Assembly: GCF_020387415.1 (NCBI RefSeq)
Contig: NZ_JAGWCB010000020.1
Span: 124,001 to 188,000, forward strand
Direction: 5' to 3'
Source of the DNA: Ideonella benzenivorans
GTDB lineage: Bacteria; Pseudomonadota; Gammaproteobacteria; Burkholderiales; Burkholderiaceae_C
Length of the DNA stretch: 64,000 nt
Position numbers and translations under genes: made by a program. Position 1 is the stretch's first letter. The number at the start of each line of letters is the position of its first letter. Positions 11,547-43,130 of the stretch are shown here, one piece after another. The notes beneath the pieces were generated by a model, which had not been told where the DNA came from, did no database searches, and saw only the letters and a program-made list of their open reading frames with translations.

Positions 11547-12017
11547 ATGGCCCAGCCGGCACTGCGCACCGACTTCGCCGACCGCCTGGCCCGCCGGGGC
11601 GATGAGGTGGAGGACGTGCGCGGCCTGCTGCTGGCGCATGCCGACCCGGCCGCCGGCCCGGCCGAGATGGCCTGGCTGGTGGCGCAACTGGTGGCCGTGG
11701 CCTGCCTGGGCGACGACCACCTCTGGCAGGACCTGCGGTTGGCGCACCGCGGCGAGCTGGGCGCCTTGCTGCGCCATTGGTTCCCTTCGCTGGTGGCGCT
11801 GAACACCGGCGACATGAAGTGGAAGAAGTTCTTCTACCGTCAGCTCTGCCAGCAGGCGGAGATCCTGATCTGCAAGTCGCCCAGCTGTGCGGTCTGCTCG
11901 GACCACGCACAGTGCTTCGAGGCGCCTGAGGACGGCCAGGCGCTGGCCGGGCCGGCCCCGCTTGCGGGTGGTCGCCCGGTTCCTTTGCCGGGCAGCCCGT
12001 CCGTCCATTCCCACTGA
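11547..12017 (+). CDS. nifQ: Molybdenum delivery protein NifQ
   Basis: NifQ carries a Mo-Fe-S cluster and donates molybdenum to the NifEN/NifH complex for FeMo-co. The C-terminal half shows the family cysteine motif C-x4-C-x2-C-x5-C (Cys109, 114, 117, 123), preceded by Cys101 and the block MKWKKFFYRQLCQQAE. At 156 residues it is slightly short for the family. The tail after the motif is proline/glycine rich and probably disordered. It is the last nif gene here; the molybdate transporter begins 81 bases later behind a ModE-type operator. Confidence 0.94.
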   Translation: MAQPALRTDFADRLARRGDEVEDVRGLLLAHADPAAGPAEMAWLVAQLVAVACLGDDHLWQDLRLAHRGELGALLRHWFPSLVALNTGDMKWKKFFYRQLCQQAEILICKSPSCAVCSDHAQCFEAPEDGQALAGPAPLAGGRPVPLPGSPSVHSH

Positions 12018-12072: not shown

Positions 12073-12098
12073 TCGTTGTATACGTCAAAATACAGCGA
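12073..12098 (+). promoter_or_regulatory. ModE-type operator upstream of modB
   Basis: The inverted repeat TCGTTGTA-N10-TACAGCGA has half-sites at 12073-12080 and 12091-12098. ModE operators pair TCGNTATA-type half-sites with this spacing. The right arm ends directly before the modB start codon at 12099. The same geometry occurs at 17883-17908. Binding of Mo-loaded ModE would block initiation of the transporter operon. Confidence 0.8.
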
Positions 12099-12776
12099 AT
12101 GTGGCAAACCCTACAGGCCCTGGACTGGGCACCGTTCTGGCTCTCGCTCAAAGTGGCTGGTGTGGCCACCGCGCTGGCCTGGGTGTTCGGCGTCGGGCTG
12201 GGGTGGGTGTTCGCCCGCACCCGCCTGCCGGGGCGCGGGCTGCTGGAGGCCATCTGCATGCTGCCGCTGGTGCTGCCGCCCACGGTCATCGGCTACGCCA
12301 TCCTGCTGGCCGCCGGCCGGCGCAGCGCGATCGGCAGCTGGCTGCATGCCCACCTCGACTACTCGATCATCTTCAACTGGCATGGCGCTGTGGTGGCATC
12401 GGCCGTGGTGGCCCTGCCGCTGGTGCTCAAGTCCGCCAGCGCGGCCTTCGGGCAGGTGGACCGGCACCTGGAGGCCGCCGCCCGCACGCTGCGCCAGTCG
12501 CCCTGGTCGGTCTTCGTGCGGGTGACGCTGCCGCTGGCCGCGCCCGGGATCATCGCCGGCACGCTGCTGGCCTTTGCCCGGGCGATGGGCGAGTTCGGCG
12601 CCTCGCTGATGGTGGCCGGCTCCATCCCCGGCAAGACGCAGACGCTGTCGATGGCCATCTACGACGCGGTGCAGGCCGGGGAGGACGACATCGCCCTGGC
12701 CCTGGTGCTGGTGACCTCGGTGCTGTCGGTGTCGGTGTTGGTGTTGTCCAACTGGCTGCTGGCCCGCAAGCGCTGA
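12099..12776 (+). CDS. modB: Molybdate ABC transporter permease ModB
   Basis: The inner-membrane permease of the molybdate importer, 225 residues with five to six membrane helices. It has the ABC-permease coupling loop EAAARTLRQSPWSVFVRVTLP and the block ARAMGEFGASLMVAG, characteristic of ModB/CysT-like permeases. The start at 12099 abuts the ModE operator and has no visible ribosome binding site, so translation may be leaderless or the start may differ. modB comes first in this operon, ahead of modA and modC, which is unusual. Confidence 0.95.
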   Translation: MWQTLQALDWAPFWLSLKVAGVATALAWVFGVGLGWVFARTRLPGRGLLEAICMLPLVLPPTVIGYAILLAAGRRSAIGSWLHAHLDYSIIFNWHGAVVASAVVALPLVLKSASAAFGQVDRHLEAAARTLRQSPWSVFVRVTLPLAAPGIIAGTLLAFARAMGEFGASLMVAGSIPGKTQTLSMAIYDAVQAGEDDIALALVLVTSVLSVSVLVLSNWLLARKR

Positions 12777-12808
12777 TCTTTCCTTGACCCTTCCCTTGGA
12801 GGTATCCC

Positions 12809-13588
12809 ATGTCCTTTCGTGAAACCGCAGTGAGCCGGCGCGTGCTGGTGAGCGCCCTGGGCGCGCTGGCGCTGGGCCTGTCCAGTCTGGCGGCCTCGGC
12901 GCAGACGCTGACCGTCTCGGCCGCCGCCAGCATGACCAATGTGCTCAAGGACCTGGGCGCGAAATACGAGGCCGCCCACCCGGGGGTGAAGCTGCAGTTC
13001 AACTTCGCCGCCTCGGGCGTGCTGCTGCAGCAGATCAGCCAGGGCGCGCCGGTGGATCTGTTCATCAGCGCGGACGAGGCCACGGTGGACAAGGGCATCG
13101 GGCAGAAGCTGCTGGATGTCGACAGCCGCAAGACCCTGGCCTCGAACGCCGTGGTGCTGATCCTGCCGGCGCAGGATCCCCAGCCCATCACGGGCCTGGC
13201 GGACCTCTATGGCCCTGCCGTCAAGCGCATTGCCGTGGGCAAGGTGGCCAGCGTGCCGGCGGGGCGCTACGCCAAGCAGGCGCTGGAGTCGGTGCACCTG
13301 TGGAGCGCGCTGGAGCCCAAGTTCGTCTATGCCGACAGCGTGCGCCAGGTGCTGGACTATGTCTCGCGCGGTGAGGTGGACGCCGGCTTCGTCTATTCCA
13401 CCGATGCAGCCATCATGGCCGACAAGGTCAAGGTGGTGATGACCGTGGGCGGCCACACCCCGGTGCGCTACCCGATGGTCCTGGTCAGCGAGAGCAAGCA
13501 GAAGGCACAGGCTGGCCAGTTCGCGGCCTATCTGCTGACCCCGGCGGCGCAGAAGGTGCTGGCTGCGGCTGGCTTTGGCAAGCCCTGA
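12809..13588 (+). CDS. modA: Molybdate-binding periplasmic protein ModA
   Basis: The substrate-binding protein that captures molybdate for ModBC. The 259-residue protein has a signal peptide with predicted cleavage near ASA-Q (about residue 31). The mature part starts LTVSAAASMTNVLKDLG, the typical ModA N-terminus with the ASM oxyanion-binding turn. The later block DAGFVYSTDA is also conserved. GGAGG precedes the start. It lies 32 bases after modB. Confidence 0.96.
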   Translation: MSFRETAVSRRVLVSALGALALGLSSLAASAQTLTVSAAASMTNVLKDLGAKYEAAHPGVKLQFNFAASGVLLQQISQGAPVDLFISADEATVDKGIGQKLLDVDSRKTLASNAVVLILPAQDPQPITGLADLYGPAVKRIAVGKVASVPAGRYAKQALESVHLWSALEPKFVYADSVRQVLDYVSRGEVDAGFVYSTDAAIMADKVKVVMTVGGHTPVRYPMVLVSESKQKAQAGQFAAYLLTPAAQKVLAAAGFGKP

Positions 13589-13606
13589 GCACGCGGGGCG
13601 TTCGGC

Positions 13607-14395
13607 ATGATCGATGTGGACCTGAAGCTGACGGTGGCGGATCGCCATCGCCGCTTCGATCTGGCCATGCGCTTTGCCAGTGATGCACCGGTGGTGGCGC
13701 TGTTCGGCCCTTCCGGTGCGGGCAAGTCGCTCACGCTGCAGGCCATCGCCGGGCTGATCCGACCGCAGGCCGGGCATGTCCGCATCGGCGGGCGCACGCT
13801 GTACGACCAGCAGGCCGGTGTGGACCTGCCGGCCGCCCAGCGCGGCGTGGGCTATCTGTTCCAGGACTACGCGCTGTTTCCGCACCTCACCGTGCGGCAG
13901 AACGTGGGCTTCGGCCTGACCAGCTGGCGGCGGCGCCAACTGGGGGCGGCCGATGCCCGGCGGGTCGACGGGCTGCTGGAGACCTTCGGCCTGACCGCGC
14001 TGGCCGCCTCCCGGCCGGAGGGCTTGTCCGGCGGGCAGCGTCAGCGGGTGGCCCTGGCCCGCGCGCTGGCCTGCGAGCCCGCGCTGCTGCTGCTCGACGA
14101 GCCCTTCGCGGCCCTCAACCCCATGCTGCGGCAGAGCCTGCGCCAGGAGCTGGCCCTGGTGCGCCAGCGTTGGCGCATCCCGATGCTGCTGATCACCCAT
14201 GACGTGGAGGACGTGCTGGCCCTGGCCGATGTGGCCTGCGTGGTCGAGCACGGGCAGGTGATCCGGGCGGTGGATGTGGGGCAGGGCATGGAGCGGGCGG
14301 CGGTGCACCGCTCGCTGGGGCTGGCGCCCCCGCCGCTCGAGGATGACCGCACCCGGGCCGTGCGCCGTCTGCTGGCCTTGCCGGGGGCGCTGTGA
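13607..14395 (+). CDS. modC: Molybdate ABC transporter ATPase ModC, without TOBE domain
   Basis: The ATPase driving molybdate import. Walker A is GPSGAGKS, the signature motif is LSGGQRQR, Walker B is LLLLDEPFAAL, and the switch histidine lies in ITHD. At 262 residues it ends shortly after the nucleotide-binding domain, while classical ModC proteins have about 350 residues and a C-terminal TOBE (Mop-like) molybdate-sensing domain. The TOBE domains here are found instead in the separate Mop protein at 15281-15709. The stop overlaps the start of modD (GTGA). Confidence 0.93.
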   Translation: MIDVDLKLTVADRHRRFDLAMRFASDAPVVALFGPSGAGKSLTLQAIAGLIRPQAGHVRIGGRTLYDQQAGVDLPAAQRGVGYLFQDYALFPHLTVRQNVGFGLTSWRRRQLGAADARRVDGLLETFGLTALAASRPEGLSGGQRQRVALARALACEPALLLLDEPFAALNPMLRQSLRQELALVRQRWRIPMLLITHDVEDVLALADVACVVEHGQVIRAVDVGQGMERAAVHRSLGLAPPPLEDDRTRAVRRLLALPGAL

Positions 14396-15291
14396 GCGCC
14401 GGGGCCGCGCTGTCCAGCGTCTGGGCCGGCGGTCTGGAGGATGACCGCTTGCGCGCGCTGCTGCGCGAGGATGCACCGCAAGGCGATCTGAGCAGCCGCG
14501 CCCTGGGCCTGGGGCGGCAGCCGGCGCGCATCACCTTCACCGCGCGGGGGCCGATGGTGGTGGCCTGCATCGAGGCCGCCGCCCGGCTGCTGCAGCTGTG
14601 CGGCGTGGTGGCGGTGCCGGCCGTGGGCAGTGGGGACCGTGCGGTGGCCCGGGCCCTGCTGCTGGAGGGCCATGGTCCGGCCGAGGGTGTCTTGCTGGGC
14701 TGGAAGGTGGCCCAGAATCTGGTCGAGTCGGCCTCCGGCATTGCCGGGGCGGCGGCGGCCATCGTCGACCGGCTGCGCGCGGCGGGGCTTGACACGCCGC
14801 TGGCCTGCACCCGCAAGGCACCGCCCGGCACCCACTGGTGGGCGGCCTGGGCGGTGGAGGCCGGTGGGGCGGTGATGCATCGCCTGGGGCTGTCGGAAAC
14901 GCTGCTGGTCTTCCCGGAACACCGGGCCCTGCTGGCCGGCCAGGATGTGGCTGCGCGGCTGCAGGCACTGCGGCGCCAGCAGCCCGAAAAGCGCTTGGTG
15001 GTGGAGACGGCCGATCCCCAGGAGGCCCTGCACCTGGCCCGACTGGGCGTGGACGTGCTGCAGCTGGAACGCTTTTCGCCGGCGGCGTTGGCCGAGTTGC
15101 GGGCGGCCCTGTGGGCCGAATCGCTGACCACGCGCCTGGCCCCGGCCGGCGGGGTGACGCTGGACAACGCGCTGGACTATGCCCGTGCCGGGGCCGACCT
15201 GCTGGTCAGCTCGGCCCCCTATTTCGCCCGGCCCGCCGATGTGAAGGTGGGCATCACCCCCGTGCCCGGCGACGGAGGCCTCAGCCCTTGA
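14392..15291 (+). CDS. modD: ModD, nicotinate phosphoribosyltransferase-like mod operon protein
   Basis: A 299-residue member of the ModD family, related to quinolinate phosphoribosyltransferase NadC and found only in molybdate operons. Conserved segments include EDAPQGDLSSRALGL near residue 28, the TRKAPPGTHWW region near residue 142, and GGVTLDNALDYARAGADLL near the end. The biochemical role in molybdenum metabolism is unknown. It starts with GTG overlapping the modC stop, and its 3' end overlaps the convergent mop gene by 11 bases. Confidence 0.88.
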   Translation: MSAGAALSSVWAGGLEDDRLRALLREDAPQGDLSSRALGLGRQPARITFTARGPMVVACIEAAARLLQLCGVVAVPAVGSGDRAVARALLLEGHGPAEGVLLGWKVAQNLVESASGIAGAAAAIVDRLRAAGLDTPLACTRKAPPGTHWWAAWAVEAGGAVMHRLGLSETLLVFPEHRALLAGQDVAARLQALRRQQPEKRLVVETADPQEALHLARLGVDVLQLERFSPAALAELRAALWAESLTTRLAPAGGVTLDNALDYARAGADLLVSSAPYFARPADVKVGITPVPGDGGLSP

Positions 15292-15709
15292 CACCCACCA
15301 GCACCGAACCGGCCTTGAACAAGGCGGTGACCGGCGAGCCCACGACGAGCGCCAGATCGTCCACGGCACCGTTGGTGACGATGCTGGAGATCTCTGCCCC
15401 CCCGGGCAGCTTGACCGAGACCGCCGCATTGACCGCGCCCTTGTGGATGGCCGACACCGTGCCGCTGAGCTGGTTGCGCGCACTGAACTTCCAGCCGGCG
15501 ATGTCGGTGGCCAGCAGCACCAACGGGGCCTTCACGAAGGCCACGGCCGGGGCGCCGACCTTCAGACCCAGGCTGTGCACGCTGCCTTCGGTGATGGCCG
15601 CCACCAGGGTCTCGCCGGTGGTCAGGCGGAAGTCGACCTCGGCATTCACCGGGCCTTCCTTGACCGCGGCGATGGTGCCTTCGAATGCATTGCGGGCGCT
15701 GATCTTCAT
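15281..15709 (-). CDS. mop: Di-domain molbindin (Mop), two TOBE domains
   Basis: A cytoplasmic molybdate-binding protein of 142 residues made of two tandem TOBE/Mop domains, starting at about residues 2 and 76. Both begin with the molybdate-binding S-A-R-N signature (ISARNAFEGTI and FSARNQLSGTV). Such proteins store or buffer molybdate. GGAGG lies nine bases before the ATG at 15709. The gene is divergent from modE and convergent with modD. It may supply the sensing domain missing from ModC. Confidence 0.94.
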   Translation of the reverse strand: MKISARNAFEGTIAAVKEGPVNAEVDFRLTTGETLVAAITEGSVHSLGLKVGAPAVAFVKAPLVLLATDIAGWKFSARNQLSGTVSAIHKGAVNAAVSVKLPGGAEISSIVTNGAVDDLALVVGSPVTALFKAGSVLVGVKG

Positions 15710-15765: not shown

Positions 15766-15802
15766 CTTGCGCCCCAGCGTTTTCCCTCGTCCAGCCCAAC
15801 GC

Positions 15803-16648
15803 ATGAACCGCCCCACCGACACCGCTTTCGGACGCCTGCAGGCCCGGCTGCAGATCGACACCCCGTTGGGGGCCTTCCTGGGCGAGCAGCGCATTGCCTT
15901 GCTGGAGGCCATTGGCCTGCAGGGCTCGATCGCTCGGGCGGCCAAGGTGGTGGGCCTGAGTTACAAGGCGGCCTGGGAGGCGGTGGACGACATGAACAAC
16001 CTCTCCACCGAGGCCCTGGTGCTGCGGGTGGCGGGCGGGCCGCGCGGCGGCGGCACCACGCTGACGGCGCATGCGCTGCGGCTGATCGCGTTCTACCGGG
16101 CCTTGCAGGCCGAACACCAGGCCACCTTGCAACGCCTGCAACAGGTGCTGGCCGGGCCGGCGCAGGCCGTGCCGGCGGACGATGCGCTGGCCTACCGTCG
16201 GCTGCTGCACCGCTTCTCGCTGCAGACCAGTGCCCGCAACCAGTTCGTGGGGACCGTGCAGCGGGTGCTGGCCGACGAGGTGGAGGCCCGGGTCTGGCTG
16301 GATCTGGGCAGTGGCCTGACGTTGGAAGCGCTGGTCACGACCGAATCGGCCGAGCGCCTGAAGCTGGGCCAAGACCAGGAGGTGCATGCGCTGGTGAAGT
16401 CCGGCGCCGTGGGCCTGTGGGGCCCCGAGGGGGAGCGGCCCGAGGGGCTCAACCACTACCCTGGGGAGATCACCCGCTGCGCCTGGGGGCAGCGCAAGGC
16501 CGACATCACGGTGGCCCTGGCCGGCCACCACCTGCAGGCGACCTCGGTGCTGTCGGTGGCCTGCGCCCGGGATCTGGGGTTGACGCCCGGTGGGCAGATC
16601 GTGGTGGGCTTCAGGCCGGCGGATGTGCTGCTGGCGGTGGCGGCCTGA
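15803..16648 (+). CDS. modE: Molybdate-responsive transcriptional regulator ModE
   Basis: A molybdenum sensor and DNA-binding regulator of 281 residues. The N-terminal winged helix-turn-helix (about residues 15-110) contains QGSIARAAKVVGLSYKAAWE, the usual ModE recognition region. Two TOBE domains follow (about 145-210 and 218-281); the first has the SARNQ signature, and the second diverges there (LNHYPGEI). ModE should bind the two operators at 12073-12098 and 17883-17908. The gene is divergent from mop, and its 3' end overlaps the convergent globin-like gene by 38 bases. Confidence 0.95.
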   Translation: MNRPTDTAFGRLQARLQIDTPLGAFLGEQRIALLEAIGLQGSIARAAKVVGLSYKAAWEAVDDMNNLSTEALVLRVAGGPRGGGTTLTAHALRLIAFYRALQAEHQATLQRLQQVLAGPAQAVPADDALAYRRLLHRFSLQTSARNQFVGTVQRVLADEVEARVWLDLGSGLTLEALVTTESAERLKLGQDQEVHALVKSGAVGLWGPEGERPEGLNHYPGEITRCAWGQRKADITVALAGHHLQATSVLSVACARDLGLTPGGQIVVGFRPADVLLAVAA

Positions 16649-17228
16649 ACCAGCCGCGCACCTCCTCGAAGGGATAGCGCCGCAGCGGCAGGCGGCGCGC
16701 GCGCGGCGCCAGCAGGTGGATGGACAGGGGCTCGGCCCAGCGCCAGAGGTCGGCCCGCAGCCAGTCGGGCAAGCCCACGTCGTCGAAGCTGTGCCACAGC
16801 TGCACCAGCCAGATCTCCCGCCCCACTTCGTCGAGCAGCACCGGCAGGCCTGCGCCGGCCTGCAGCCGGCTGTGTCGCTCGCTGTAGTAGAGCGGACCGC
16901 CGCAGGACTCGATCACGAAGTCGGCCACCCGGTCGGCCACGCAGTCGAAGCAGTCCTGCACCTCGTCGAGCAGCGGCGTCAGCTGCAGCCGCGTCATGTG
17001 CCGGTGCACCAGCCGGCGCAGGCCCCCTTCGCCGCACAGGGCCAGCACGCTGTGGGCCGGGGGCGGCACCTCGGGCAGCGGCGCGGGCATGGGCCAGACG
17101 CCTGGCGCGTCCGTCGACGGGGGCGGGCTCTCCTGGCGGACTGGCCAGCGCAAGGTGGCTCGGCAGGCGTGATCGCAGGGGCGCCAGCGGGCCGGGCTGG
17201 TGGGGTCGGGAGGATGCATGGAGGCCAT
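16611..17228 (-). CDS. Truncated-globin-like protein lacking the proximal histidine
   Basis: A protein of up to 205 residues whose part from about 62 to 175 resembles group II truncated haemoglobins. Shared blocks are GEGGLRRLV near 66-74, GGPLYYSER at 110-118, R..WL at 137-141 and DDVGLPDWL at 149-157. Where the family has the haem-ligating R-x-R-H before the next proline, this protein reads QAGAG (123-127), so the proximal histidine is absent. The usual B10 tyrosine also aligns to Met. Haem binding is therefore doubtful. The N-terminal 60 residues are proline rich and include PCDHAC. The start is uncertain (17228, 17219 or 17090), and no good ribosome site is visible. It is the last gene of the operon led by 17643-17867. 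Confidence 0.7.
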   Translation of the reverse strand: MASMHPPDPTSPARWRPCDHACRATLRWPVRQESPPPSTDAPGVWPMPAPLPEVPPPAHSVLALCGEGGLRRLVHRHMTRLQLTPLLDEVQDCFDCVADRVADFVIESCGGPLYYSERHSRLQAGAGLPVLLDEVGREIWLVQLWHSFDDVGLPDWLRADLWRWAEPLSIHLLAPRARRLPLRRYPFEEVRGWFRPPPPAAHPPA

Positions 17229-17241
17229 GAGGGGATCGCGC

Positions 17242-17264
17242 TTGTCGCGTTTGTCAGGCTTGTC
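17242..17264 (+). repeat. Three TTGTC direct repeats with a nine-base period
   Basis: TTGTC occurs at 17242, 17251 and 17260 in the 50-base gap between the 123-residue gene and the globin-like start. The exact nine-base period in non-coding DNA is notable. Read in the globin frame it would encode an x-D-K repeat, but no start codon precedes it in that gap. Significance unknown. Confidence 0.4.
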
Positions 17265-17278
17265 GCAATGGCGGGGCC

Positions 17279-17650
17279 TCAGCCCCCGGTCAGCGGGGCC
17301 GGGGCCTGTCGCGGGCCCTCGCGCAGCACGCGGGGGCGGCAGCTGTCCAGGCGGTCCATCCGGTCCAGCACGGTCAGCCACTGGCCGTTCTGCAGACGCC
17401 AGGCGATGCGGCGCTCCCGCAGCACCGCCACTTCCAGCGGGAATTCGTCGATGTCGAAGCGATCTTCCGTCACCGTGTGGGTGTGGCGCAGGTAGCAGCG
17501 CTGGCCCTGGGCATCGAGCCCCACCACCATGCGCGCATGGGCCAGGCCGTCCTCATGGGCCTCGTAGCGGGTGGGGACGATCACCTGGCCGGCATAGTCG
17601 ACCGGCAGCTCGTCCAGCCATTGCAGGGGATCGGTGAAGGGTTCAGCCAT
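17279..17650 (-). CDS. Conserved-looking hypothetical protein in the ModE-operator operon (123 aa)
   Basis: I do not recognise this 123-residue protein. It has no signal peptide or membrane helix and is rich in charged and aromatic residues, with a strand-rich middle (YLRHTHTVTEDRFDIDEFPL) and a C-terminal tail of arginine and proline. It looks cytoplasmic and globular. The ATG at 17650 has an excellent ribosome site (GGAGGT) and overlaps the preceding gene by eight bases, so the two are translationally coupled. The globin-like gene follows after 50 bases. Position behind a ModE-type operator suggests a role connected with molybdenum or nitrogen fixation. Confidence 0.72.
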   Translation of the reverse strand: MAEPFTDPLQWLDELPVDYAGQVIVPTRYEAHEDGLAHARMVVGLDAQGQRCYLRHTHTVTEDRFDIDEFPLEVAVLRERRIAWRLQNGQWLTVLDRMDRLDSCRPRVLREGPRQAPAPLTGG

Positions 17651-17867
17651 GGCGCACCTCCAGGGCATGCAGGGCCTGGGCGTCCAGGTCGATCCGGACC
17701 GCCTGCCCGATCCGCGGGCGCCAGCGCTCCGCCTCGGCTGCCGACAGCGGCAGGCGCAGGAACTGCCAGCCCGCCAGGGCCAGGACGGCCTCCGCACCGT
17801 CGGCGGCGACATGGATGCCGCGCAGACAGGCGGTCTGCCAGGGGGAGACATGCGGGACAAGGGACAT
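17643..17867 (-). CDS. Small hypothetical protein, first gene of the ModE-operator operon (74 aa)
   Basis: I do not recognise this 74-residue protein. It has no membrane helix. A strand-like core (AVLALAGWQFLRLPLSAAE) precedes an R-I-G-Q-A-V-R-I-D-L pattern suggesting a small beta-rich fold, but no family can be named. AAGGAG lies seven bases before the ATG at 17867. A promoter embedded in a ModE-type operator lies directly upstream (17883-17913). The last eight bases overlap the start of the next gene. Confidence 0.7.
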   Translation of the reverse strand: MSLVPHVSPWQTACLRGIHVAADGAEAVLALAGWQFLRLPLSAAEAERWRPRIGQAVRIDLDAQALHALEVRHG

Positions 17868-17882
17868 TGGGGGCTCCTTGTT

Positions 17883-17913
17883 TCGTTATATACAAAACAC
17901 TATAGCGAGACAA
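17883..17913 (-). promoter_or_regulatory. ModE-type operator overlapping a sigma-70 promoter
   Basis: The operator is TCGTTATA-N10-TATAGCGA (half-sites 17883-17890 and 17901-17908), with the same layout as the modB operator. On the minus strand a promoter can be read with -35 TTGTCT (17908-17913), a 17-base spacer and -10 TATAAC (17885-17890). The operator thus covers the -10 box and the whole spacer, ideal for repression by Mo-ModE. The downstream gene starts at 17867. The sensor kinase at 18000 is divergent and could also be affected. Confidence 0.8.
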
Positions 17914-17999
17914 CAACAGGCAATCCCCATGCCAGACCAGCGCTCCTCAGGTGCCCCGGCGGTGCCCGGCCCTGATGTTTTCCTGATGGCGGTCCGGTT

Positions 18000-19565
18000 A
18001 TGGTTCGGTTCATGGCAGAGCTTGCAGACAGGGACACGCAGGGCCGCGGCTGGCGGAGCGCGCTGGCCTTGCTCGTCTGGCTGGGGGGCTGGGCGCTGGT
18101 GCTGGGGTTCCAGGCCCGCCTGGACCTGGCCAACGAGGCGCTGATCCTGGTGGCGGCCGGTGCGCTGTCGGCCGTCTGGCTGCCGGTGTGGGGCGCCCTG
18201 GGCCTGGGCCTGGTCGGCATGGTTGCTTTCAACTGGCGCTTCGTGCCGCCACGCGACACGCTGCAGGTGGACAGCACCCAGAATCTGGGGCTGCTGCTGG
18301 GCATGCTGGCGATCACCGTGGAGGTGAGCCTGCTGCTGGCAGCGCAGCGCCGACAGGCCGGTCTGGCCCGCCGTCAGGCCCAAGACGCAGAGGCGCTGCG
18401 GGCCTGGAGCGACCGGCTGCGTGAGAGCCCCGACCCGCAGGCTTTGCTGCCGGAACTGGTGCACCGGCTGGAGACCGCCGTGGACGCGCCAGTGGCCCTG
18501 CTGGCGTGGCGCGAGGCGCCTCGGTGGCCCTTGGAGGAAGCGGCCCTGCAGACGCTGGGCGCACCCGTGGACGAGGAGGCGGGCGCGGCCCTGCGACACA
18601 CCTTGGCCGAGGGCCGCCCCATGGGGCCGGGCACGGGCTACCACGACGGACTGGGTTTCTGGGTGCTGCCAATGCGCGGCACCGGGGTGGCCCAGGGGGC
18701 GGTGGCCGTGTTCGGCCAGGCCGTCGAGGGGGACGGCCAGGCCCTGCGGCAGCACCTGCAGTCCCTGTGCGATCTCTGGGGTGCGGCACGCCAGCGGGCC
18801 CGCGCCGAAGCCGACGAGCAGGCGGCCCGCGAGCGCGAACAGACCCAGTGCGTGCGCAACGCCCTGCTGGCCGCGGTCTCGCACGACTACCGCACCCCGC
18901 TGGCCACCATCCTGGGCGCGGCCTCCTCGCTGCAGACACAGGGCGAACGCATGACCGCCACGCAGCGCGAGCGCCTGGCCCACACCATCGTTGAGGAGAC
19001 CGAGCAGCTGGGGCGCCTGACCGACAACACCCTGCAGCTGGCCCGCCTGGAGGCACCCGGGCTGCGGCTGCACCTGGACTGGGAGTCGGCCGAGGAGGTG
19101 GTCGGTGCGGTGTTGCACCGGGTGCGGCGCCGGCCGGGCGGCGAGCGGGTCAACGGCCGGGTGGAACCGGATCTGCCGCTGCTGCGTTGCGATGCGCTGC
19201 TGCTGGCCCAGTTGCTGGACAACCTGGTGGACAACGCCTTGCGCTACAGCCCGCCCGCATCGCCGATCGAGGTGCTGGCCCGCCAGCAGGACGGGCAGGT
19301 GGTGCTGGCCGTGCGGGACCGGGGGCCCGGGGTGCCCGCCGCCTGGCGGGACAAGGTGTTTGAACCCTTCCAGCGCGGCCCGGGTATCGGGGCGGATGGG
19401 GCCCGGGCGGGCGCGGGGGTTGGGCTGGCGGTGTGCCGGGCCATTGCCCGTGCCCATGGGGGCGAGATGCGCGTGCGACGGCGGGCCCACGGAGGCTGCG
19501 CGTTGGAGTGCTGGCTGCCCGTGGCCAGACAGCCCGCCCCGCCCGAAGCGGAGGTGTGGTCATGA
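18000..19565 (+). CDS. KdpD-like sensor histidine kinase without the N-terminal KdpD/USP region
   Basis: A 521-residue membrane kinase matching the C-terminal half of KdpD. It has four membrane helices of the DUF4118 type (about residues 20-105), a GAF-like segment (about 125-260), a histidine box with the phospho-acceptor in VSHDYRTPLATILGAA (about 297), and an ATPase domain with N-box LLDNLVDNALRYSPP and a G-x-G lid region. Full KdpD has about 900 residues, and the missing part includes its Walker A and universal-stress-protein domains. The response regulator overlaps it by four bases. The neighbouring gene is kup, not kdpFABC. The start is uncertain (18000 or 18012). Confidence 0.88.
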   Translation: MVRFMAELADRDTQGRGWRSALALLVWLGGWALVLGFQARLDLANEALILVAAGALSAVWLPVWGALGLGLVGMVAFNWRFVPPRDTLQVDSTQNLGLLLGMLAITVEVSLLLAAQRRQAGLARRQAQDAEALRAWSDRLRESPDPQALLPELVHRLETAVDAPVALLAWREAPRWPLEEAALQTLGAPVDEEAGAALRHTLAEGRPMGPGTGYHDGLGFWVLPMRGTGVAQGAVAVFGQAVEGDGQALRQHLQSLCDLWGAARQRARAEADEQAAREREQTQCVRNALLAAVSHDYRTPLATILGAASSLQTQGERMTATQRERLAHTIVEETEQLGRLTDNTLQLARLEAPGLRLHLDWESAEEVVGAVLHRVRRRPGGERVNGRVEPDLPLLRCDALLLAQLLDNLVDNALRYSPPASPIEVLARQQDGQVVLAVRDRGPGVPAAWRDKVFEPFQRGPGIGADGARAGAGVGLAVCRAIARAHGGEMRVRRRAHGGCALECWLPVARQPAPPEAEVWS

Positions 19566-20275
19566 GCCAGCGGGTGCTGCTGGTCGAGGACGACCGCGAG
19601 CTGCGCACGCTGTGGTGCGAGGCCCTGGCCCTGGAGGGGCACGCGGTCCAGACCGCGGCCAGCCTGGCCGAGGCCCTGGCCCTGTGGCGCCACGGCGGGA
19701 CGGCCCGCCCCGAGCTGGTCATCCTGGACCTGGGCTTGCCCGATGGCGAGGGCGCTGACTTCCTGGCCACCGTGCGGCGGGAGGGCGCCGTGCCGGTGCT
19801 GGTGGTCTCGGCGCGCCAGGCCGATGAGCACAAGATCGGGCTGCTCGATGCCGGCGCGGACGACTACCTGGTGAAACCCTTCAGCGTGGGCGAGCTGCTG
19901 GCCCGCATGCGGGTGGCCTGGCGCCACCGGGGCACCACCGTGGCGCCGGCGGCCCTGACTTACCGCCATGGAGCGCTGGCGATCGATCTGGCCAGCCGGC
20001 GGGTGACGCGCGGCGGCGAGCCGGTGCACCTCACACCGACGGAGTTCAAGCTGCTGGCCCGGCTCGTGCGCAGTGCCGGGCAGGTCGTCACCCACCGTCA
20101 GCTGCTGTCCGATGTCTGGGGGGCCGAGTGCGTGGAGCAGACTCAGTACCTGCGGCTCTACATGGGGCAGTTGCGGGCCAAGCTGGAGGAGCAGGCCTCA
20201 GCCCCGCGTTGCTTGCTCACCGAGCCCGGGGTGGGCTACCGTCTGGTCGATGTGGAGGATGAACCACTGGCCTGA
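19562..20275 (+). CDS. KdpE-like response regulator, OmpR family
   Basis: A 237-residue transcription factor and partner of the upstream kinase. The receiver domain has acidic residues in VEDDRE, the phospho-acceptor Asp in LVILDLGLPD (about residue 58) and the switch Lys in LVKPF. The winged helix follows (about 130-230) with HLTPTEFKLLARLV and a C-terminal GVGYRLVD. These blocks are KdpE-like. ATGA overlap with the kinase gene implies coupling. It lies 54 bases before kup, its likely target. Confidence 0.92.
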   Translation: MSQRVLLVEDDRELRTLWCEALALEGHAVQTAASLAEALALWRHGGTARPELVILDLGLPDGEGADFLATVRREGAVPVLVVSARQADEHKIGLLDAGADDYLVKPFSVGELLARMRVAWRHRGTTVAPAALTYRHGALAIDLASRRVTRGGEPVHLTPTEFKLLARLVRSAGQVVTHRQLLSDVWGAECVEQTQYLRLYMGQLRAKLEEQASAPRCLLTEPGVGYRLVDVEDEPLA

Positions 20276-20329
20276 ACCGGCTCCCCGGGGCTTATGCCTT
20301 CCTGATCCCTGTCGCGGCACACTGACACC

Positions 20330-22240
20330 ATGAGCACAGACATCTCCCACGAAGCTTCCCCCCCCCACCCGGGAGGGGCCCACGGTCCCCTGGGTGCCCT
20401 GGTGCTGGGGGCCATCGGCGTCGTCTACGGCGACATCGGCACCAGCCCGCTCTACACGATGGCGGAGGTGTTCTCGCCGGCCAACGGCGTGCCGCTGACG
20501 CCCGAGGCGGTGACGGGGGCGGTGTCCACCCTGTTCTGGGCCCTGATGTTCGTGGTCACGCTCAAGTACGTGGTGCTGATCCTGCGGGCTGACAACCGCG
20601 GCGAAGGCGGCATCCTGGCGCTCACCGCGCTGGCGGCCCAGGCGGTCGGTGGCCGGCCGGGGCGGCGCGCGGTGCTGCTGATGCTGGGCGTGTTCGGCGC
20701 CACGCTGTTCTATGGTGACAGCATCATCACGCCAGCCATCTCGGTGCTGGGGGCGGTCGAGGGGCTGTCCGTCGTGGCGCCGGGGCTCTCGCGTGCGGTG
20801 CTGCCCTTGTCGCTGGTGGTGCTGGTGGCCTTGTTCGCCATGCAGCGCCGGGGCACGGCGTCGGTCGGGCGGCTGTTCGGCCCGGTCATCGTGGTCTGGT
20901 TCCTAACGTTGGCCGCCACCGGCCTGTGGCAGATCCTGAAGGCGCCGGCCATCCTGGCGGCGCTCAATCCCGTGCACGCGCTGCATTTCCTGCTGGAGCG
21001 GGGCTGGCATGTGTTCGCCGCACTGGGCGCCATCGTGCTGGCGCTGACCGGGGCCGAGGCGCTGTATGCCGACATGGGGCACTTTGGCCGCCGGCCCATC
21101 CAGCTGGCCTGGACCGGCCTGGTGCTGCCCGCGCTGGCGCTGAACTACCTGGGCCAGGGGGCCCTGCTGCTGCAGGAGCCGGCGGCGCTGGCCAGTCCCT
21201 TCTTCCACATGTTCCCGGACGCCTGGCGGCCCGCGGCGGTGGTGCTGGCCACCCTGGCGGCCATCATCGCCTCGCAGGCGGTGATTTCCGGCGCGTTCTC
21301 GATGACGCGCCAGTCCATGCTGATGGGCTTTCTGCCGCGCATGGCGGTGCGCCACACCTCGGCCCGGGAGCAGGGGCAGATCTACATGCCGCTGGTCAAC
21401 TGGCTGTTGCTGGCGGGCGTGCTGGCGGCGGTGCTGGCGTTCCGCAGCTCGGCGGCGCTGGCCGGGGCCTATGGCGTGGCGGTGACGCTGACCATGCTGA
21501 TCACCACCGTGCTGGCCTATGTCGTGGTCAGCAAGGTCTGGCGCCTGCCGGTCTGGGCGGTGGTGCCGGCCACCGCGCTGTTCCTGACCGTGGACCTGGC
21601 GCTGTTTGCCGGCTGCGCCCTCAAGTTCACCGACGGCGGCTGGTTCCCGCTGGCCATGGCCGGTCTGTTCTTCACCGTCATGAGCACCTGGCGGCACGGC
21701 CGCGTCCTGGTGCTGGAGGCCATCCGCCGCGAGGGGCTGGACCTGCTGCCCTTCGTGCAGGAGATGTCGGCCAGCCCTATGCCCCGGGCCGCCCGGGTCG
21801 CGGTCTACGCGGTGGCCGATCCCACCACCGTGCCTCAGGCCATGCTGCACAACCTCAAGCACAACCAGGTGCTGCATGAGCGCAATGTGATCCTGAACGT
21901 GCGCTTTGCCGACCAGCCCTGGGTGGACGAATCCGAGCGGGCCACGGTGGAGCTGCTGGCGCCGGGGTTCTGGCGCGTGCTGCTGGTGTTTGGCTTCATG
22001 GAAACACCGGACGTGCCCCATGCGCTGGCCCAGTGTGGCGCGCAGGGCCTGGAGGTGCCGTTGTTCGAGACCAGCTACTTCCTGAGCCGAGAGACGGTGG
22101 TGTCCACGCCCGGTGGTGGCATGGCCGCCTGGCGCGAGCGCCTGTTCGCCACCCTCAGCCGCAATGCGGGCAATGCCGCCCACTTTTTCCAGCTGCCCGA
22201 CAACGCGGTGGTCGAGCTGGGGACCCGGGTGCAGATCTGA
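20330..22240 (+). CDS. kup: Low-affinity potassium transporter Kup (TrkD)
   Basis: A potassium-proton symporter of 636 residues with about twelve membrane helices and a C-terminal cytoplasmic domain. The family signature [13 protein letters not shown] occurs near residue 31, and [19 protein letters not shown] near 120. The segment [11 protein letters not shown] is also characteristic. The N-terminal 20 residues (His/Pro rich) are species-specific. Its position directly after a KdpDE-like pair suggests potassium- or osmotic-responsive control. Confidence 0.96.
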
Positions 22241-22264
22241 CCGGCCCCGGTGCCCTGCCGTCGG

Positions 22265-23251
22265 TCAGGGCACCAGCACGGCCGCGCCCACCAGCTCGCC
22301 TGCCCGCAGCTGGCGCAGCGCCTCGTTGGCCTCGGTGAGCGGGAACACCGTGGTGGTCACCTCCAGCTGCAGCGTGCGGGCGGCGGCCAGGAACTCCTCG
22401 CCGTCAGCACGGGTGAGGTTGGCCACCGAGCGGACCTGGCGCTCCTCCCACAGCAGGCGGTAGCGAAAGGCCGGGATGTCGCTCATGTGGATGCCGGCGC
22501 ACACCACCGTGCCGCCCTTGCGCAGCTGCGCCAGCGAGATCGGCACCAGCGCGCCCACCGGCGCGAAGATCAGGGCCGCGTCCAGCGGCTCGGGCGAGGG
22601 CTCGTCGGAGCCGCCGGCCCAGACGGCACCCAGCGAGCGGGCCAGGGCCTGCGCGGCGGTGTCGCCCGGCCGGGTGAAGGCCAGCACCCGCCGGCCCTGC
22701 TGTCGCGCCACCTGGGCGATCAGGTGAGCGGCAGCACCAAAGCCGTACAGGCCCAGGGTCTGGGCGTCGCCCGCCATGCGCAGCGCGCGCCAGCCGATCA
22801 GGCCGGCACACATCAGCGGCGCGGCATGCACATCGTCCAGCGGCACGTCCTCCAGCGAGAAGCAGTACTGCGCGTTGGCGATGACCTGGGTGGCGAAGCC
22901 GCCGTCGCGCAGATAGCCGGTGAAGACAGGCGTGTCGCAGAGGTTCTCCTGCCCGTGGCCGCAGTAGAAGCAGTGGCCGCAGGTGCCGCCCAGCCAGGGC
23001 ACGCCCACGCGCTCGCCCAGGCGCAGGCCGCTGACGCCGGGGCCCAGCGCCTCCACAGTGCCGACGATCTCATGGCCGGGCACGATGGGCAGCGGCCCCG
23101 GGGGCAGGTCGCCATCGACCACATGCAGGTCGGTGCGGCAGACGGCACAGGCCCGCACCGCCAGCCGCACCTCGCCCGGGCCGGGTTCCGGCTGTGGGCG
23201 TTGTTGGGGCACCAGGGGCTGGCCGATCGCCGGCAGGGTCATCGCAAGCAT
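22265..23251 (-). CDS. Zinc-dependent alcohol dehydrogenase
   Basis: A medium-chain alcohol dehydrogenase of about 328 residues. Zinc-binding elements are visible: CRTDLH (catalytic Cys), GHEIVGTVE, and the structural-zinc lobe CGHCFYCGHGQENLC. The nucleotide-binding segment reads LYGFGAAAH, an altered form of the usual G-x-G-x-x-G. I prefer the Met at 23251 because GGAG lies six bases upstream; Met at 23263 would add four residues. Substrate unknown. It is convergent with kup and 34 bases from mobA's end on the same strand. Confidence 0.9.
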   Translation of the reverse strand: MLAMTLPAIGQPLVPQQRPQPEPGPGEVRLAVRACAVCRTDLHVVDGDLPPGPLPIVPGHEIVGTVEALGPGVSGLRLGERVGVPWLGGTCGHCFYCGHGQENLCDTPVFTGYLRDGGFATQVIANAQYCFSLEDVPLDDVHAAPLMCAGLIGWRALRMAGDAQTLGLYGFGAAAHLIAQVARQQGRRVLAFTRPGDTAAQALARSLGAVWAGGSDEPSPEPLDAALIFAPVGALVPISLAQLRKGGTVVCAGIHMSDIPAFRYRLLWEERQVRSVANLTRADGEEFLAAARTLQLEVTTTVFPLTEANEALRQLRAGELVGAAVLVP

Positions 23252-23297
23252 CACGCACTCCATGCGAGGGGATGCGACGATTGTGCGACGGACCCGG

Positions 23298-23930
23298 TCA
23301 GCGAGTGTGGCGCTGGCGCAGGTCCTCGGGGGTGTTGACGTTCAGGAAGGCGGGGCCGTCGTCGAACGCCACCTCCACGGTGGCGTGGCGGGCCAGCCAG
23401 TCGCGTACCCGCCGGCCGCCCTGCTGCAGGTAGAGCGCCAGGTCGTCCTTCAGCCGCACCTGCAGCAGGCAGAACACCGGGTGCAGCTTGGGCGCCCAGT
23501 GGCCGGCCTCGTCGGGCGCGGGGGCCACGGCCACCGCCAGGTCGGCACCGGCTGTCTGGACGGCATCGACCAGCCGGGCCACCACGTCGCCGGGGAAGTC
23601 CGGACAGTCGCAGGGCACGCTGGCCAGCCAGGGCGTGTCGGCATGGGTCAGGCCGGTCAGCAGGCCGGCCAGAGGGCCGGGCTGATCGGGCAGAGTGTCC
23701 GGCCAGACCGGCACGCCCAGCGCGCGGTAGGCCGCCAGATGGCGGTTGGCGCTGAGGCCGATCGGGCCCACCTGCGGCCGCAGCCGTTCCAGGGCCCGTG
23801 CCGCCAGCGGTTGGTCGTGCAGGGGCAGCAGCCCCTTGTCTTCGCCCCCCATGCGCCGGCCCCGGCCACCGGCCAGCACCAGCCCGGTGATGGCCTCGCG
23901 GGGGATGGCGCTGGGCGATGTGGGCGCCAC
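23298..23930 (-). CDS. mobA: Molybdenum cofactor guanylyltransferase MobA
   Basis: Transfers GMP to Mo-molybdopterin, giving the MGD cofactor of DMSO-reductase-family enzymes. The N-terminal nucleotide-binding loop LAGGRGRRMGGEDKG and later blocks (SANRH, DTLPDQPGPLAGLLTGL, VPCDCPDFP) match MobA. No ATG precedes the loop in this frame after the upstream gene ends, so I chose the GTG at 23930, which lies just after the apbC stop and gives 210 residues. Its product could serve the molybdopterin oxidoreductase at the right edge of the window. Confidence 0.88.
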   Translation of the reverse strand: MAPTSPSAIPREAITGLVLAGGRGRRMGGEDKGLLPLHDQPLAARALERLRPQVGPIGLSANRHLAAYRALGVPVWPDTLPDQPGPLAGLLTGLTHADTPWLASVPCDCPDFPGDVVARLVDAVQTAGADLAVAVAPAPDEAGHWAPKLHPVFCLLQVRLKDDLALYLQQGGRRVRDWLARHATVEVAFDDGPAFLNVNTPEDLRQRHTR

Positions 23931-23931
23931 C

Positions 23932-25026
23932 TCAGGTGTTCTTCGAGACGGTGATGGTCGGGAACTTGGACGAAAAGTCCTTGGCCCGCTGTGCCACCGT
24001 GACCGCCACCTGGCGGGCAACGGCCTTGTACAGACCGGCGATCTCGCTGTCCGGCGCGGCCAGCACGGTGGGGTGGCCGGCGTCGGCCTGTTCACGGATC
24101 GAGCGGTTGAGCGGCAGGGCGCCCAGGTAGTCCACGCCGTACTCGGCCGCCATGGTCTTGCCACCATCCACGCCGAAGATGTGTTCGGTGTGGCCGCAGT
24201 GGGGGCAGCAGTAGACGGCCATGTTCTCGACGATGCCGAGGATGGGCACGCCCACCTTCTCGAACATCTTCAGGCCCTTCTTGGCGTCCAGCAGGGCGAT
24301 GTCCTGCGGCGTGGTGACGATGACCGCGCCGGTGATGGGCACGCGCTGGCTCAGCGAGAGCTGGATGTCGCCGGTGCCGGGGGGCATGTCCACCAGCAGG
24401 TAGTCCAGTTCCTTCCAGTTCGTCTGGCGCAGCAGCTGGTCCAGGGCCTGGGTGGCCATCGGGCCGCGCCAGATCATGGCCTCGTCCGGGGCGACCAGGA
24501 AGCCGATCGAGTTGACCTGCACGCCGTGGTTCTGCAGCGGCTCCATGCTCTGGCCGTCCAGGGATTCGGGCCGCTGGCCGGACAGGCCCATCATCATGGG
24601 TTGGCTGGGGCCGTAGATGTCGGCGTCCAGGATGCCGACCCGGGCCCCTTCGGCGGCCAGCGCCAGGGCCAGGTTGACGGTGGTGGTGCTCTTGCCCACG
24701 CCGCCCTTGCCAGAGGCCACGGCGATGATGTTCTTCACCCCGGGCAGCAGGGCCACGCCGCGCTGCACCTGGTGCGGGGTGATCTCGCTGCGGATGTCGA
24801 TCTCGACCGGGCCGGTGAGGCCGGCCTGGCGCAGGGCACCGGTCAGCTGCTGGCGCAGGCTGTCGTGCAGGCTGCGGGCCGGGTAGCCCAGCACCAGCTC
24901 GAAGCCGACGCCCTCGCCACCGAGCTTCAGGTTCTTGATCTGCCGGGTGCTGACGAAGTCCTTGCCCGTCAACGGGTCGATGACGGTCTGCAGGGCTTGG
25001 AGGACGGCGGGTTCGGTCAGGGCCAT
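23932..25026 (-). CDS. apbC: Iron-sulfur cluster carrier protein ApbC/Mrp
   Basis: A P-loop NTPase that binds and transfers Fe-S clusters, 364 residues. It has an N-terminal DUF59/MIP18 domain (about residues 5-80), a deviant Walker A GKGGVGKST near 105, and a C-x-x-C in CCPHCGHTEHIFG used for cluster binding. I chose the Met at 25026, which starts the DUF59 domain directly. mobA follows immediately and may be co-transcribed. The protein could support nitrogenase and molybdoenzyme maturation; this is inference. Confidence 0.94.
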   Translation of the reverse strand: MALTEPAVLQALQTVIDPLTGKDFVSTRQIKNLKLGGEGVGFELVLGYPARSLHDSLRQQLTGALRQAGLTGPVEIDIRSEITPHQVQRGVALLPGVKNIIAVASGKGGVGKSTTTVNLALALAAEGARVGILDADIYGPSQPMMMGLSGQRPESLDGQSMEPLQNHGVQVNSIGFLVAPDEAMIWRGPMATQALDQLLRQTNWKELDYLLVDMPPGTGDIQLSLSQRVPITGAVIVTTPQDIALLDAKKGLKMFEKVGVPILGIVENMAVYCCPHCGHTEHIFGVDGGKTMAAEYGVDYLGALPLNRSIREQADAGHPTVLAAPDSEIAGLYKAVARQVAVTVAQRAKDFSSKFPTITVSKNT

Positions 25027-42413: not shown

Positions 42414-43130
42414 ATGGCCCGCCCACAGCGCATCTTCCTGCCTGGACATCCGCACCATGTGGCGGTGCGAGGGCACAACCAGGGCCCGGTGTTCCGGGAC
42501 GACGAGGACCGCCGGTGCTATCTGACGCACCTGCGGACGGTGGCCCGCGAATACCGGGTGGCCTTGCATGCCTATGTGCTGCTGGATGACCGGATCCATC
42601 TGCTGCTCACCCCGTCCACCCAGGAGGGCATCAGCCGGATGATGCAAGCCCTGGGGCGTCGCTACGTGGCGGATTTCAACCGCCGCCACGGACGCACCGG
42701 CACCCTGTGGGAGGGGCGCTTCGCCTCGCATCTGGTGGATGCGGAGGCGGTGTTGGACTGCCAGGGGTTCATCGAGACCGCCCCGGAGCGGATGGCAGGG
42801 CAGGCCGTCAGGGCCGATCAGTACGCCTGGTCCAGTGCACCGCACCACCTTGGGGTGCGCACCGATGCATTGATCACCGACCACGCGGCGGTCTGGGCCT
42901 TGGGCAACACCCCGTTTGAACGTGAGGCGGCGTACCGGGAGCGTTTGGCGCAGGGGGTGACAGTGCCGCAGCAGCGTGCTGTTGAACAGGCTTTGAGGCA
43001 GGGCCTGCTGTACGGCAGCCCGCAAGCGCGGCAACGCCTGGAACGTGAGTTGCATCGGCCGCTGGCCCCGCGACCCAGGGGGCGCCCCCGCAAAACGGAT
43101 CTGAGTGGCCTCGACTCTGGCACTAATTAA
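42414..43130 (+). CDS. REP-associated tyrosine transposase-like protein with altered HUH motif
   Basis: A 238-residue Y1/IS200-like protein of the REP-associated (RAYT) type. Conserved segments are VAVRGHNQGPVFRDDEDRR, LHAYVLL and GRTGTLWEGRF. The metal-binding HUH motif, normally NHVHLL, reads DRIHLL here (residues 59-64), so the first histidine is replaced by Arg60. The family block C-x-x-Y-I-E-x-N-P is also changed (CQGFIETAPE). Catalysis may be lost or the protein domesticated. The C-terminus DSGTN and stop are encoded within the first of two short direct repeats. It interrupts the interval between dgt and gltB. Confidence 0.85.
   Translation: MARPQRIFLPGHPHHVAVRGHNQGPVFRDDEDRRCYLTHLRTVAREYRVALHAYVLLDDRIHLLLTPSTQEGISRMMQALGRRYVADFNRRHGRTGTLWEGRFASHLVDAEAVLDCQGFIETAPERMAGQAVRADQYAWSSAPHHLGVRTDALITDHAAVWALGNTPFEREAAYRERLAQGVTVPQQRAVEQALRQGLLYGSPQARQRLERELHRPLAPRPRGRPRKTDLSGLDSGTN

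Follow-up and report, generated by a model that had tools for sequence, protein, structure and literature searches.

A putative ModE-controlled operon of Ideonella benzenivorans ends in a globin-fold homologue with six invariant cysteines and no proximal histidine

Beside the molybdate transport and nif genes of Ideonella benzenivorans, a three-gene operon that follows a perfect match to a ModE-type operator ends in a globin homologue in which the proximal, haem-ligating histidine has been lost and six cysteines are invariant. We read it as a low-molybdenum operon under ModE control, whose globin fold would not hold haem through position F8 and would most likely carry a cysteine-bound metal, aiding molybdenum handling; we give this reading as a whole a probability of about 0.4. 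The analyzed DNA, here called the window, is a stretch of 64,000 nucleotides and forms part of contig 19 of a 4.49 Mb genome. Its relevant features are the following.

11547..12017, plus strand: nifQ (Pfam NifQ, E 9.7e-43, profile matched from position 49)
12073..12098, plus strand: second ModE-type site, before modB (2 mismatches)
12099..15291, plus strand: ORFs that we take to be modB, modA, modC and modD, by recognition and by gene order in relatives
15281..15709, minus strand: Mop-type molybdate-binding protein with two TOBE stretches (Pfam TOBE, E 3.1e-31)
15797..16648, plus strand: modE, the likely regulator (NCBIfam PRK10676, E 9e-45, and ModE_repress, E 4.6e-25, neither reaching the curated cut-off)
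16611..17228, minus strand: gene 3, globin-fold homologue of 205 aa (P0001) without the proximal His and with six invariant Cys (ORF, PDB match)
17279..17650, minus strand: gene 2, 123 aa (ORF)
17643..17867, minus strand: gene 1, 74 aa (ORF)
17883..17908, minus strand: ModE-type operator ahead of the operon, TCGTTATATACAAAACACTATAGCGA, 0 mismatches to TCGYTATA-N10-TATARCGA

From 6980 onward the plus strand reads nifE, nifN (both named by recognition, hence presumptive), nifQ, modB, modA, modC and modD, followed by the Mop gene on the minus strand and modE on the plus strand. The real start of nifQ may lie further upstream than 11547, and the modE product has a Mop domain that scores above its cut-off. 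The operon runs from 17867 down to 16611, convergent with modE; a first-pass annotation, made from the letters of the window, had placed the three minus-strand ORFs and the eight-base overlap of genes 1 and 2 (17643-17650) at these same positions. Kinase, regulator and Kup-like genes at 18000-22240 adjoin the operon and likewise adjoin gene 2 in another genus (G135, L076:4582-9325); what we take to be the sensor-kinase gene begins at 18000 and points in the opposite direction to the operon. Further along the window, the ORF at 42414-43130 presumably resembles a REP-associated tyrosine transposase.

P0001 matches no Pfam family at E 10 and is likewise not recognized by NCBIfam. A phmmer search of PDB with P0001 alone gave 4nk1 as the nearest solved structure (E 4.9e-20), which together with 4nk2 we take to represent the truncated haemoglobin HGbIV from Methylacidiphilum infernorum; when the eight copies were used as a profile, 4nk1 scored E 2.6e-26 and another seven truncated globins fell below E 0.006. 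The homology to 4nk1 spans residues 51-194, the C-terminal extension included. By hhalign, P0001 and its kin align to six ordinary truncated globins at 95% (E 3.1e-8), and four of the eight members match Pfam Bac_globin with a best E of 0.0019, short of the cut-off. AlphaFold on a three-row alignment (window, L004, L005) gave a pLDDT of 41, too low for a usable globin model. Judged by these profile comparisons the gene 3 product is a true globin homologue, and the globin assignment of the first-pass annotation holds, though Pfam misses P0001. The eight-row alignment comprises the intact copies lacking the histidine, with the Paraburkholderia sprentiae copy (L042) and a divergent relative in genome G223 (L038) left out. 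In a tree these ten rows form one clade (support 100/100), apart from 4nk1 and from a relative in genome G600; resolution within the clade is poor, and G223 sits on a long branch. On the tree, then, the globin kin are a clade, present in several Burkholderiales.

The sequence QAGAG occupies residues 123-127 of P0001, where the RHLP of ordinary truncated globins has become AGLP. The F8 column holds Gly in all eight intact copies, and His in G223, G600 and 4nk1, while the Tyr at B10 aligns with Met78, which is invariant in the eight; HGbIV itself has His at B10 (our alignment and an excerpt of PMC4476040). Across residues 113-130 the alignment of eight contains no invariant His, Cys, Met or Tyr. 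All cysteines of P0001 are invariant (8/8): Cys18 and Cys22 (CxxxC), Cys65, Cys93 and Cys96 (CxxC), and Cys109, compared with one or two Cys in each of the ordinary truncated globins examined. Cys109 is common to 4nk1 and the G600 relative and a Cys near the N-terminus of the latter may align with Cys18, whereas Cys65, 93 and 96 have no counterpart in 4nk1 or the G600 relative. The losses at F8 and B10 pointed out in the first-pass annotation are thus borne out in all eight intact copies, and its description of a globin homologue without the F8 histidine stands, while the six invariant cysteines had been overlooked.

Compared with known systems, P0001 shares with group II truncated globins (Pfam Bac_globin) the GGP, WL and F-G region motifs, but differs in having N- and C-terminal extensions and the six Cys, and in lacking the F8 His and B10 Tyr. 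With HGbIV it has in common, besides the aligned span and Cys109, a His at B9, but HGbIV retains the F8 His and has no Cys65, 93 or 96. The analogy with NifQ would be one of function and not of kinship: both are Cys-bearing and nif-linked, and in L035, L041 and L042 adjacent, but no sequence relation is seen, and CX3C and CX2C in P0001 stand against CX4CX2CX5C in NifQ. We reject an ordinary oxygen-binding truncated globin on the strength of the eight-copy alignment and the comparison with ordinary truncated globins. In the divergent kin of G223, at a mod locus, the F8 column is occupied by His; this protein keeps Cys65, 93 and 96 and is without GGP and the other three Cys. Taken together, the six-Cys, His-less clade suggests that the globin fold may serve a new purpose here.

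One possible alternative, which we regard as somewhat unlikely, is that the protein has the globin fold but carries neither haem nor metal and works as a scaffold or in signalling, through contact with a partner in low molybdenum, its Cys serving for stability or redox sensing. There is a precedent in the N-terminal globin domain of Bacillus subtilis RsbR, in which F8 is Ala and no haem is bound, and which resembles P0001 as a globin fold without the F8 His (an excerpt of PMC4476040). RsbR belongs to a different globin line, is fused to a STAS domain and has no mod/nif link. The many invariant surface-type residues besides Cys in the alignment of eight would suit partner contact, but six invariant Cys, two of them as CxxC, go beyond what a scaffold needs. 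Less probable still, and in our view unlikely, is that haem is bound through another residue, such as an invariant Cys or His77 or His146, and that the protein acts as a sensor or scavenger of O2, NO or CO close to nitrogenase when molybdenum is low. Retention of the GGP and YS motifs in all eight intact copies is consistent with this, as is His77 at B9, matching the His of 4nk1, but the F segment offers no invariant ligand and the genome already encodes three ordinary truncated globins that score above the Pfam cut-off, including one whose gene lies about 0.5 kb from nifH.

Relatives that bear the histidine lie near metal-uptake genes. In G600 the gene is flanked on one side by that for a periplasmic binding protein and on the other by those for a FecCD permease and an ATPase; modE lies about 6 kb further along, and no convincing ModE site stands out at this locus; in G608 a fragment lies near a solute-binding protein and a TonB plug-domain gene, the latter preceded by two strong ModE-type sites. 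Although only two in number, these loci suggest that the globin line may have been linked to metal uptake before it lost the histidine. At L081:8308-11895 a FecCD-type ABC transporter operon includes a His-bearing globin gene, and TonB-receptor-like genes and modE lie close by.

In the family sample 14 of 399 genomes matched the globin, and eight of these (G254, G324, G343, G071, G135, G292, G120 and G352; nine matches, E 5e-5 to 9e-4) were left out. Their matches read as ordinary truncated globins with His (L019, L020, L021, L023), another globin-like type (L024, L027), an 80-aa half (L026), one sequence that is not globin-looking by eye (L025) and one without score (L022). Globin kin are thus present in 6 of 399 genomes. 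Because all 399 match nifH at E 0.001, only the 30 above the curated cut-off were counted as nifH genomes, and all six carriers are among them (p 1.1e-7, rising to 1.5e-6 when the own genome is left out; related genomes are treated as independent in both cases). The remaining 24 of the 30, two Ideonella (G001, G002) among them, have no globin kin, so the protein is not needed for nitrogen fixation as such. The order sample (10 of 399 matched) added only G600 and G608 to the own genome as globin kin and the phylum sample (6 of 398 matched) contained only the own genome, neither holding a further His-less copy.

Of 72,556 plasmids three matched, and two carry globin kin, one from Paraburkholderia aromaticivorans and one from P. 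sprentiae. Both copies, annotated as hypothetical proteins, stand directly after nifQ and before a DUF2325 gene. An LLM-class oxidoreductase and mod genes lie further behind the globin in P. aromaticivorans, and the stretch shown for P. sprentiae, where the globin copy looks decayed, holds no mod gene. Genes for modE or the mod transporter lie within the stretches analyzed around the globin in L004, L005, L035, L036, L037, L038, L039 and L041, and the mod/nif setting described in the first-pass annotation recurs in other genera. An LLM-class (luciferase-like) oxidoreductase gene separates globin and mod genes at L035:10482-11492 (Pfam) and L041:9971-10963, and follows the globin, by eye, in L036 and L037; since metal chelators are cleaved by certain members of this superfamily, such an enzyme might free chelated molybdenum, an idea worth considering. 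The DUF2325-like genes on the two Paraburkholderia nif plasmids (L041:9330-9896, L042:12687-13178) score below the Pfam cut-off.

The operator at 17883-17908 is the sole site in the genome without mismatches to TCGYTATA-N10-TATARCGA, which we take to be, in outline, the ModE pattern; its N10 spacing was set after viewing this site and that of L009, other spacers having been tried first. With up to three mismatches the genome has five sites (one with 0, two with 2, two with 3) vs. three for a reversed control pattern, and the window has two vs. 0.04 expected. The site before modB directly abuts the likely modB ATG at 12099, which leaves no space for a usual leader. The other genomic site with two mismatches precedes a ModA-like gene on contig 17, likely a further member of the ModE regulon; two ModE-type sites lie ahead of this second ModA-like gene (L031:1365 and 1501; G000:C17:458591).

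The score is 16/16 for the pre-globin site of L039 and 15/16 for the site ahead of gene 1 in L004 and L005. Under a weight matrix derived from seven sites at loci other than those tested, with 16,315 to 24,551 positions ranked per locus, the site before the globin came 1st in L035, L038 and L041, 2nd in L037 and L042 and 9th in L036. The other of the two top sites precedes modB or modA in L037, L038 and L041, and ranks 2 and 3 in L035 fall between Mop and modE. In L036 a TATGTA-N6-TACATA palindrome is located about 60 bases ahead of the globin gene. A later site pattern, also used on L036, misses L037, L042, L074 and L080; it gave 0 hits in 50 random sets of five loci, a control that is not blind because the pattern was picked after most sites were known. 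The ModE-type operator of the first-pass annotation is thus supported by the perfect site and by its recurrence in other lineages. Its promoter, with a -10 box and spacer inside the operator, fared less well: candidate hexamers TTGTCT-N17-TATAAC are possible by eye, the second hexamer and the spacer lying inside the operator, but a strict scan of 16500-18050 found no sigma-70 promoter.

Gene 1 shows a weak match to Pfam TOBE_2, below the cut-off (E 0.024, 15.2 bits vs. 21), and one of six gene 1 members matches the TOBE profile at E up to 1. Structure prediction gave a small beta-barrel (pLDDT 85), and among the best 50 of 997 matches in a fold search 21 are molybdenum- or tungsten-binding Mop-type proteins (ModE, MopII, ModG, tungbindin and the like), the best of these at E 0.041; no match of any kind has an E below 0.03. 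The product is predicted to be a Mop/TOBE-like barrel, alike in predicted topology, but differing from Mop/TOBE domains in having no significant score and in the SARN stretch, which we take to be oxyanion-binding; this is found in the Mop protein of the window and is missing from all six gene 1 rows. Gene 2 has no Pfam or PDB match, and a plasmid search gave nothing usable.

Homologues of gene 1 occur in 4 of 150 genomes, and those of gene 2 in 10 of 32 (the 30 nifH genomes together with G008 and G010, the sources of L004 and L005); three of the ten have the whole trio, and the copies in G182 and G326 look broken. In the stretches analyzed the two genes lie mostly at mod loci. In L072 the order is modE, gene 1, gene 2; gene 2 lies beside or inside mod genes in L074, L075, L076 and L077; gene 1 adjoins modE-like genes in L079; and in L080, on a short contig, gene 1 is accompanied by two gene 2 copies, the searched part containing no mod gene. 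In L072, L074, L076, L077, L079 and L080 the top-scoring ModE-like site of the locus precedes gene 1 or 2 or coincides with its start, ModE-like sites lie between Mop and modE in L075, and gene 2 has none in L073 and L078. Genes 1 and 2 are thus mod-linked families that also occur without a full globin, and the globin is found elsewhere without them. This rules out the trio as a fixed unit; the co-occurrence that the first-pass annotation suggested surveying was seen only in three Ideonella genomes.

In the two others, Ideonella oryzae (L004) and Ideonella sp. B508-1 (L005), all three genes are intact, in identical order and beside mod genes, with protein identities of 60-83%. For the globin, all pairs of five sequences gave dN/dS values of 0.23-0.34; with three sequences each, gene 2 gave pairwise values of 0.09-0.33 and gene 1, the least constrained of the trio, 0.45-0.62. 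Together with the eight-copy globin alignment these values rule out chance ORFs. That the mod/nif region carries the genes along as drifting passengers of little function would suit their patchy distribution, the decayed-looking L042 copy, the broken-looking gene 2 in L073 and L078 and the 80-aa relative of the globin C-terminal half after gene 2 at a mod locus (L074:8781-9020), but is quite improbable given the globin dN/dS and the conserved operators.

In Azotobacter, ModE represses mod genes when molybdenum is abundant (an excerpt of PMC9542535). Because of this action and the operator, the operon is probably switched on when molybdenum is short: with molybdate scarce, ModE would leave 17883-17908 and the operon would be transcribed alongside the molybdate importer, yielding a Mop/TOBE-like small barrel, a mod-linked family protein and a globin-fold protein that would not hold haem through F8. 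As the haem ligand is missing and the Cys are conserved, a thiolate-bound metal would be the most economical function; the globin-fold protein would most likely carry a metal on its invariant Cys, be it zinc, an iron-sulfur centre or a molybdenum-containing thiolate centre. The neighbouring nifQ and mod genes and the Mop-like barrel make molybdenum handling the likeliest setting, where the protein may help to handle scarce molybdenum en route to nitrogenase; the step is conjectural. We infer repression by Mo-ModE, absence of haem, metal binding and the role in molybdenum handling from these features of sequence and setting. Counted against this preferred reading are the 24 nifH genomes without the globin, the F8 His and three missing Cys of G223, rank 9 in L036, the decayed-looking P. 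sprentiae copy, the empty sigma-70 scan and the lack of a model that brings the Cys near one another. A bolder version, that a truncated globin swapped haem for a thiolate-bound metal or cluster and became a ModE-switched metallochaperone for scarce molybdenum beside NifQ, feeding nitrogenase cofactor assembly, is quite improbable. Of the two functions suggested by the first-pass annotation, a low-molybdenum role is favoured, and nitrogenase protection has no support beyond location.

Among the openly licensed literature matches listed, we recognized none on a globin from a mod/nif locus that lacks the His or is rich in Cys. If the preferred reading is true, a globin clade with the haem ligand lost, a conserved Cys set and molybdenum control would represent a rare cofactor change in one of the best-studied folds, and unrecognized players would be added to the route of scarce molybdenum to nitrogenase. 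Since the two annotated copies are labelled hypothetical proteins, expression and mutant data from diazotrophs could be reread at once. Outside the window (G000:C19:118112-118435, L003) lies the gene of an ordinary truncated globin that has the proximal His motif, about 0.5 kb from nifH (118934-119752), and a comparable one neighbours nifH in G254 (L040).
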